Assembly: GCA_018666555.1 (NCBI GenBank)
Contig: JABIZD010000021.1
Location: forward strand, 1 to 64,000
Origin: Gammaproteobacteria bacterium
GTDB lineage: Bacteria; Pseudomonadota; Gammaproteobacteria; Pseudomonadales; Azotimanducaceae
Reading direction: 5' to 3'
DNA: 64,000 nt
Position 1 is the stretch's first letter. Every line of letters starts with the position of its first letter. The notes under the pieces are model-generated. The model saw only the letters and a list, made by a program, of their open reading frames with translations. It did no database searches and was not told the DNA's origin. Made by a program: the position numbers and the translations under genes. Shown here in pieces: positions 5,924 to 6,582 of the stretch.

Positions 5924-6400
5924 TTAACCGGTTCGCCGGGCATTAAGAAATTTTATCAAGGTAAGCGTCTCTTCTGGGTCCATCCTACCCACCGGTGAAT
6001 TGCTATAGGTAGAAAACATTACCTTACCTTTCCTGGTCAATAGAAATTCGGTCGGTTGGATGAACTCCTGGCGGTCATCCCACCAGGCACCCAGAGCATC
6101 TGCCTGCGGCCTGGTGACACCGTAGGCAACCGGAAACTTCAGAGATGCAGCTACCTCAGACGTTTTTTCCTGACTGTCCACAGCGGCAGCGAGGATGGAA
6201 ACACCTTCTGCTGAGAACGCTTCACGGCGCTCTTCATAGCCGGACAACAACCGGCGACAATAAGGTCACCAATGGCCCCGGTAAAATAATATGATAGTCA
6301 GTGGCGTCGATAGATCCGAAGGCAGGCTGATGCTGCCACCCTCAGTCAATTGTAAAGACATTTCCGGGAATTGGCCTCCCGAAGATAATGGCTCAGACAT
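5924..6400 (-). CDS. Peroxiredoxin-like selenoprotein (in-frame UGA = Sec45)
   Basis: Read through one TGA at 6266-6268, this is a 158-residue thioredoxin-fold, AhpC/TSA-like redoxin. The segment before the TGA ends FYRGHW and the segment after starts PYCRRLL, so the codon falls exactly on the first Cys of the family motif RGxWCPYC, giving a U-x-x-C redox pair (U45, C48). Both halves are in one frame and neither has another lesion. The ATG at 6400 has a perfect AGGAGG eight bases upstream, which would be odd for a dead gene. A GC-rich hairpin starts 10 nt after the TGA. Downstream segments such as EFLLTRKGKVMFSTYSNSPVGR fit the family to the end. The likely role is reduction of peroxides or disulfides in the cytoplasm. 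The alternatives are a recent nonsense mutation or a late start that loses the active site. Sec decoding needs selABCD elsewhere. Confidence 0.75.
6239..6268 (-). promoter_or_regulatory. Candidate bacterial SECIS hairpin after UGA
   Basis: On the coding strand the TGA (6268-6266) is followed after 10 nt by GCCGG (6255-6251), a seven-base loop TTGTTGT (6250-6244) and CCGGC (6243-6239). A perfect five-pair GC stem whose loop starts about 15 nt after UGA is near the spacing known for bacterial SECIS elements. If a U-U mismatch closes the stem, the inner loop is TGTTG with G in its second position, also as expected. Position and form agree; SelB binding is not shown. Confidence 0.6.
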
Positions 6401-6582
6401 GAAATGTTCCTCCTATTTCAGCCGTGTTGTGACCTATCGTGACCTCGCGCCCGTCAACCGCTGGCCATTATTCCCGCTACGGCTTGCTGCATCGGCTCAA
6501 GCTAACTGAACCTGGCAGCGAAACTATGTTAGTACGCCAATGCACATGAGTGCACCACTAATCCTTGCTGCTTTACTAGAGG

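Follow-up and report, generated by a model that had tools for sequence, protein, structure and literature searches.

A gene for a peroxiredoxin-like (Prx-like) protein with a UxxC motif lies on the minus strand of the window, which is the whole 64-kb stretch of DNA that was analysed. This marine bacterial redox gene, seemingly broken by a stop, is very probably intact and reads TGA as selenocysteine (Sec). The gene and the features within and beside it are as follows.

5924..6400, minus strand: predicted Prx-like UxxC selenoprotein gene, with a single in-frame TGA, an AhpC-TSA domain above cut-off and TGA in every close homologue
6409..6414, minus strand: AGGAGG Shine-Dalgarno sequence, 8 nt 5' of the ATG
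6266..6268, minus strand: TGA codon 45, predicted to be read as Sec, the U of the W-U-P-Y-C motif
6239..6255, minus strand: H1, proximal hairpin GCCGGTTGTTGTCCGGC, with covarying pairs, at the putative ancestral SECIS position
6215..6232, minus strand: H2, distal hairpin GAGCGC-CGTGAA-GCGTTC, within which CGCCGTGnnGCG is invariant, even at synonymous sites, in 73 homologues
6229-6218: codons +13, +14 and +16 after the TGA, which encode R, R and A in class A homologues

The gene is 477 nt long, from the ATG at 6400 to the TAA at 5924, and its predicted product has 158 residues with Sec at position 45. Re-reading of the minus strand bears out the single TGA of the first-pass annotation: exactly one in-frame stop is present between 6400 and 5924, at codon 45, and it is flanked by FYRGHW and PYC. 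The AGGAGG that was described at the start is also present, and the 108-codon remainder expected under ordinary annotation matches the largest ordinary ORF at the locus (6250-5924). The read-through protein matches PF00578 (AhpC-TSA) at 2.8e-19 (69.7 bits; cut-off 26). When the 64-kb window is scanned for read-through frames that have 20 or more codons ahead of the TGA and 50 or more after it and are not overlapped by a long ORF, the Prx-like gene is the only candidate.

The AlphaFold2 model has a thioredoxin fold (pLDDT 93.5, pTM 0.89), and the best Foldseek matches in the PDB are all peroxiredoxins, with TM scores of 0.80-0.84 for the top matches. The product, a predicted small thiol oxidoreductase, is as modelled peroxiredoxin-like in fold and thioredoxin-like at its active site. 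It resembles the classical peroxiredoxins (6q5v, 3hjp and 5ovq) in fold, and the position of Cys48 corresponds to that of their peroxidatic Cys. The classical PxxxTxxC motif, however, is absent. In a profile alignment to 6q5v, the Pro is replaced by Arg41 and the Thr by Sec45, and the Cys is kept as Cys48. The replacement of the Thr and the Pro rules out a classical peroxiredoxin.

The same description of fold and active site was given for a Prx-like UxxC family in the 2005 Sargasso Sea paper (PMC1088965). The GOS study lists Prx-like 1 (pfam00578, UxxC, 225 sequences; PMC2398784), and the name "Prx-like thiol:disulfide oxidoreductase" is used in PMC13188914. The Prx-like UxxC selenoproteins of these three papers share with the gene the PF00578 domain, Sec as the first residue of UxxC, a thioredoxin-like motif in place of TxxU and an origin in marine bacteria. 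Assignment to GOS Prx-like 1 is made by the pfam00578 match together with the UxxC motif U45-P-Y-C48. The gene is thus a further member of the Prx-like UxxC type reported in 2005 and 2008, and the type named by the first-pass annotation is right.

Other family models are more distant. No NCBIfam model covers the subfamily above its cut-off. The SelL-related redox proteins of NF040769 are only weakly similar to the product (27.8 bits against a curated cut-off of 120) and are rejected as its family. The Cys form with the motif FYRGHWCPYC, which we take to be the cd02970 peroxiredoxin-like family, has the same motif and fold, with Cys for Sec. Distant Cys homologues that align across the domain come from the Chloroflexota, Actinomycetota, Bacteroidota and Cyanobacteria. 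The cd02970 selenoprotein of the 2026 review is UxxS, not UxxC (PMC13188914).

The source genome is a 4.17 Mb draft in 217 contigs and is 97.6% complete. It contains selB (425 bits; cut-off 242), immediately preceded by selA, a tRNA-Sec with the anticodon UCA (49.8 bits against a gathering threshold of 47) and selD. All four components that the first-pass annotation had proposed to look for (selA, selB, selC and selD) are therefore found in the same genome, and with the complete set the organism is equipped for Sec decoding. The selD match (L099, G000:C128:5181-6080) spans about 300 residues within a 733-residue open frame, an arrangement reminiscent of the Ndh-SelD fusions described in PMC2398784. 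The genome also contains a second TGA gene, which is SelW-like with the motif CVQU (L130 1300-1900; G000:C120:22055-22255). When read by eye, the sequence after its TGA is able to pair as a proximal hairpin with the loop GUC.

Homologues were sought across 84,980 species genomes. Codon 45 is TGA in 35 of the 35 nearest public homologues (56-85% identity) and TGC or TGT in homologues from about 53% identity downward. The TGA was said to stand in place of the first Cys of W-C-P-Y-C, and this agrees with the alignment, where homologues have either TGA or Cys at that position. The gene is present in 89 of the 207 genomes of the same bacterial family. All 89 family matches that span codon 45 have TGA there, and one further match is a fragment that begins at residue 69. 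Random stops, which the first-pass annotation had weighed as grounds for doubt, are not seen in these close relatives.

This conservation bears on three other explanations of the TGA. A decaying gene, in which the TGA is a true stop and only a fragment is made, would account for the in-frame stop and for the 108-codon call of ordinary gene finders. A pseudogene is nonetheless very improbable and is already refuted by the TGA conservation, since the 89 matches have TGA at one codon and never TAA or TAG. The frame downstream is also open and conserved as protein, with synonymous variation near background, and the genome has complete Sec machinery. A TGT or TGC misread as TGA might be suspected in a draft assembly, but some 100 different sequences drawn from many separate assemblies share the TGA, a fact that already refutes this reading and leaves it the least probable of the three. 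A pseudogene, a sequencing error and chance can in practice all be set aside. Read-through of the TGA by Trp or by near-cognate suppression, with no Sec inserted, is also highly improbable. The TGA falls precisely where a CxxC motif has its first Cys, a position at which relatives have Cys rather than Trp. A Cys homologue nests within the TGA clade as a Sec-to-Cys switch, and the tRNA-Sec is present together with SelA, SelB and SelD. From sequence comparison, TGA codon 45 is almost certainly decoded as Sec, and we infer that selenium is incorporated into the Prx-like protein. Those checks of the first-pass annotation that were run all favour its interpretation.

The distribution of selB is congruent with this at the level of the order, where selB is present in 4 of 4 gene-bearing genomes versus 27 of 195 across the order (hypergeometric p = 0.0003). 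Within the family, selB is nearly universal (164 of 207 genomes) and so does not track the gene. When gene-bearing MAGs with an apparent absence of selB are checked, 4 of 16 contain selA, in each case close to a contig end. Three of the four gene-bearing genomes that are more than 90% complete and show neither selA nor selB contain a tRNA-Sec with the anticodon UCA. Most apparent absences of selA and selB in gene-bearing genomes look like assembly gaps. In one genome (G305, locus L181), which is 96% complete and contains the TGA gene, selA, selB and tRNA-Sec were looked for and none was found; this is either an assembly gap or a loss of Sec.

Genome G222 contains two copies of the Prx-like selenoprotein gene (L173 and L174). 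For L173, the genome search counted two TGA codons and the alignment showed one in the aligned part. The gene has no match in the phage collection. No neighbouring gene is common to more than 8 of 35 loci, and because the neighbours vary between lineages, the gene context gives no function.

Synonymous conservation and covariation after the TGA are concentrated in the first 54 nt or so, which points to selection at the RNA level. Two hairpins lie in this region. In the window, H1 reads GCCGG-UUGUUGU-CCGGC and starts 10 nt after the TGA. This is the GC hairpin of the first-pass annotation; it does exist, although it is unlikely to be the chief SECIS of this gene. Its loop UUGUUGU is degenerate, with no G in the first two bases, and the core CTGTTAG, which is fixed in class B homologues (defined below), is absent from the H1 of the window. 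H2 has the RNA form GAGCGC-CGUGAA-GCGUUC, with a 6-bp stem, an energy of -9.3 kcal/mol and a loop 39 nt after the UGA. The loop (6226-6221) is CGUGAA in the window and CGUGnn across class A. In the synonymous-site analysis, codons +13 CGC, +14 CGT and +16 GCG are unvarying in 33 of the first 35 homologues, and the amino acids at these positions each have 4 or 6 codons available. It is these codons that make up H2. In the class A lineage, H2 and not H1 is under the strongest selection.

A scan of the region against Rfam gives no SECIS match (one chance match), and RNAalifold alone recovers only parts of the structures, probably owing to the mixing of two alternative elements and to pairs that barely vary. 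The exact H2 motif occurs at three other places in the source genome, none of them after an in-frame TGA.

The 103 distinct TGA homologues that were compared form two groups. The 73 genes of class A, among them that of the window, contain the H2 motif CGCCGTGnnGCG and a loose H1. In class B (30 genes), H1 is fixed as CCGnCTGTTAGnCGG in nearly all members and H2 is absent or altered. The synonymous excess over the H1 codons, +4 to +9, is 0.75 in class B versus 0.24 in class A; outside the elements it is near background in both classes (0.05-0.10; 0.05-0.07 in class A). Codons +13 CGC, +14 CGT and +16 GCG are invariant throughout class A, in part by construction, since class A is defined by the H2 motif. 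The bimodality, the behaviour of H1 and the joint distribution of the two elements are evidence independent of the class definition.

When single-base near-variants are included, 58 genes have H2 only, 29 have H1 only, 16 have both and none has neither, where about 16 with neither are expected under independence. The Fisher test of this distribution gives p = 1.9e-14, computed on related sequences, and a phylogenetically corrected test has too little power, with supported branches yielding just two pairs. In 57 of the 73 class A genes the H1 core has diverged from its conserved form, and in 16 it is kept. In the present data, a changed H1 core is confined to genes with H2.

The amino acids at +13, +14 and +16 are R, R and A in 100% of class A and are variable in class B. 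The RNA element therefore seems to dictate these residues, which suggests that an RNA constraint shapes the protein sequence at the three positions.

Published rules for bacterial SECIS elements fit the two hairpins to different degrees. The bSECISearch consensus has a G at loop position 1 or 2, 16-37 nt between the UGA and the apical loop, a loop of 3-9 nt, a stem of 4-16 bp and an energy of <=-7.5 (PMC13188914). In the fold check that the first-pass annotation had suggested, H1 forms as a hairpin; in the window its loop lacks the required G and fails that rule. H2 in the window meets the rules for loop G, loop length, stem and energy, and its spacing of 39 nt fails by 2 nt. At H2, none of the 73 class A genes passes all rules, owing to the spacing, and 64 pass every other rule. 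At H1, all rules are passed by 22 of the 73 class A genes and by 8 of the 30 class B genes. This fold-based check is strict. In class B the low rate is mainly due to minimum-energy folds in which the upper stem often opens into a larger loop, or to energies that miss the cut-off.

H2 resembles the consensus in that it is a small coding-region hairpin after the UGA with a loop G at position 2 followed by U. It differs in its distance of 39 nt and in the arrangement of two hairpins in series, the proximal of which loses its recognition loop in the class A lineage. The 2026 review states that some bacterial SECIS elements fail the model, which indicates distinct classes (PMC13188914). In a limited literature search, no two-hairpin or relocated bacterial SECIS was found.

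H2 is probably the functional SECIS in this lineage, as judged from the conservation described above. The alternative is that the gene encodes a selenoprotein with H1 as its SECIS and that H2 is kept for another RNA or DNA reason, such as pausing, mRNA stability or a binding site. Consistent with this alternative are the customary distance of H1 from the UGA, the covariation of its pairs, the formation of its stem in most class A genes, its fixation in class B and the retention of its core in 16 class A genes. The alteration of the core in the remaining 57 class A genes argues against it, as do the low pass rate at H1 in class A and the missing early G in the loop of the window. An unrelated function of H2 would also not explain why the core departs only where H2 is present. 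A SECIS at H1 in class A is thus unlikely.

In a tree rooted with the Cys homologues, class B is basal and paraphyletic and class A is nested. The H1 core undergoes about 16 changes on this tree. Weak support for several inner branches leaves the number of hairpin gains and losses uncertain. Within class A, L125 retains the class B H1 unchanged, and its H2 is altered synonymously (CGT CGT GAA GCC). Its sisters, L105 and L110-L112, bear H1 and H2 together, and L112 has one change beside the H1 core. A gene with TGC at codon 45 (L054, 3001-3447) sits among the TGA genes, and both its H1 and H2 sequences are gone. This is likely a Sec-to-Cys replacement with loss of both hairpins.

It is moderately likely that the SECIS of one orthologous gene relocated from the proximal H1 (loop about 17 nt after the UGA) to the distal H2 (39 nt), with a living two-hairpin intermediate, the old stem turned into a spacer and the new element dictating amino acids. 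At least one reversal, L125, is visible under relocation.

Taken as a whole, a UxxC selenoprotein in which SelB recognition has moved from H1 to H2 is quite likely the best explanation of the comparative data. In class A, SelB carrying Sec-tRNA-Sec would bind the GU-containing loop of H2 and deliver Sec at UGA 45. The H1 stem, having lost its recognition loop, would shorten the path from the UGA to H2 to about 22 nt (39 nt minus the 17-nt hairpin). Binding of SelB to the GU of H2 with H1 as a spacer helix is suggested by conservation. In the ancestral form, as in class B, SelB would bind H1 itself, with the genes that bear both hairpins as the probable intermediate stage. At the active site of the protein, attack on the substrate would come from Sec45, and Cys48 would then resolve the selenenylsulphide, which thioredoxin or a similar reductant may then reduce. 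The SelW-like gene, which is the sole other TGA gene examined in the genome, is a counterpoint in that it appears to use a proximal hairpin. Together with the lack of an H2 motif at any other in-frame TGA in the source genome, this means that distal recognition has no second gene in its support.

Proteins of this type have been on record since 2005. The way in which the decoding signal is laid out in this gene appears to be new and has good comparative support. Misannotation of selenoprotein genes is routine, and a common definition of bacterial SECIS elements has been elusive. If the proposal is true, the relocated SECIS would be a bSECIS layout of its own, one that rule-based searches now in use would miss. 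In one gene family, two alternative elements occupy the same transcript in related genomes, intermediates included. Comparison of these natural variants, whose differences are mostly synonymous, may test what SelB requires in distance and loop. The family also offers a concrete case in which an RNA decoding signal seemingly constrains protein sequence.
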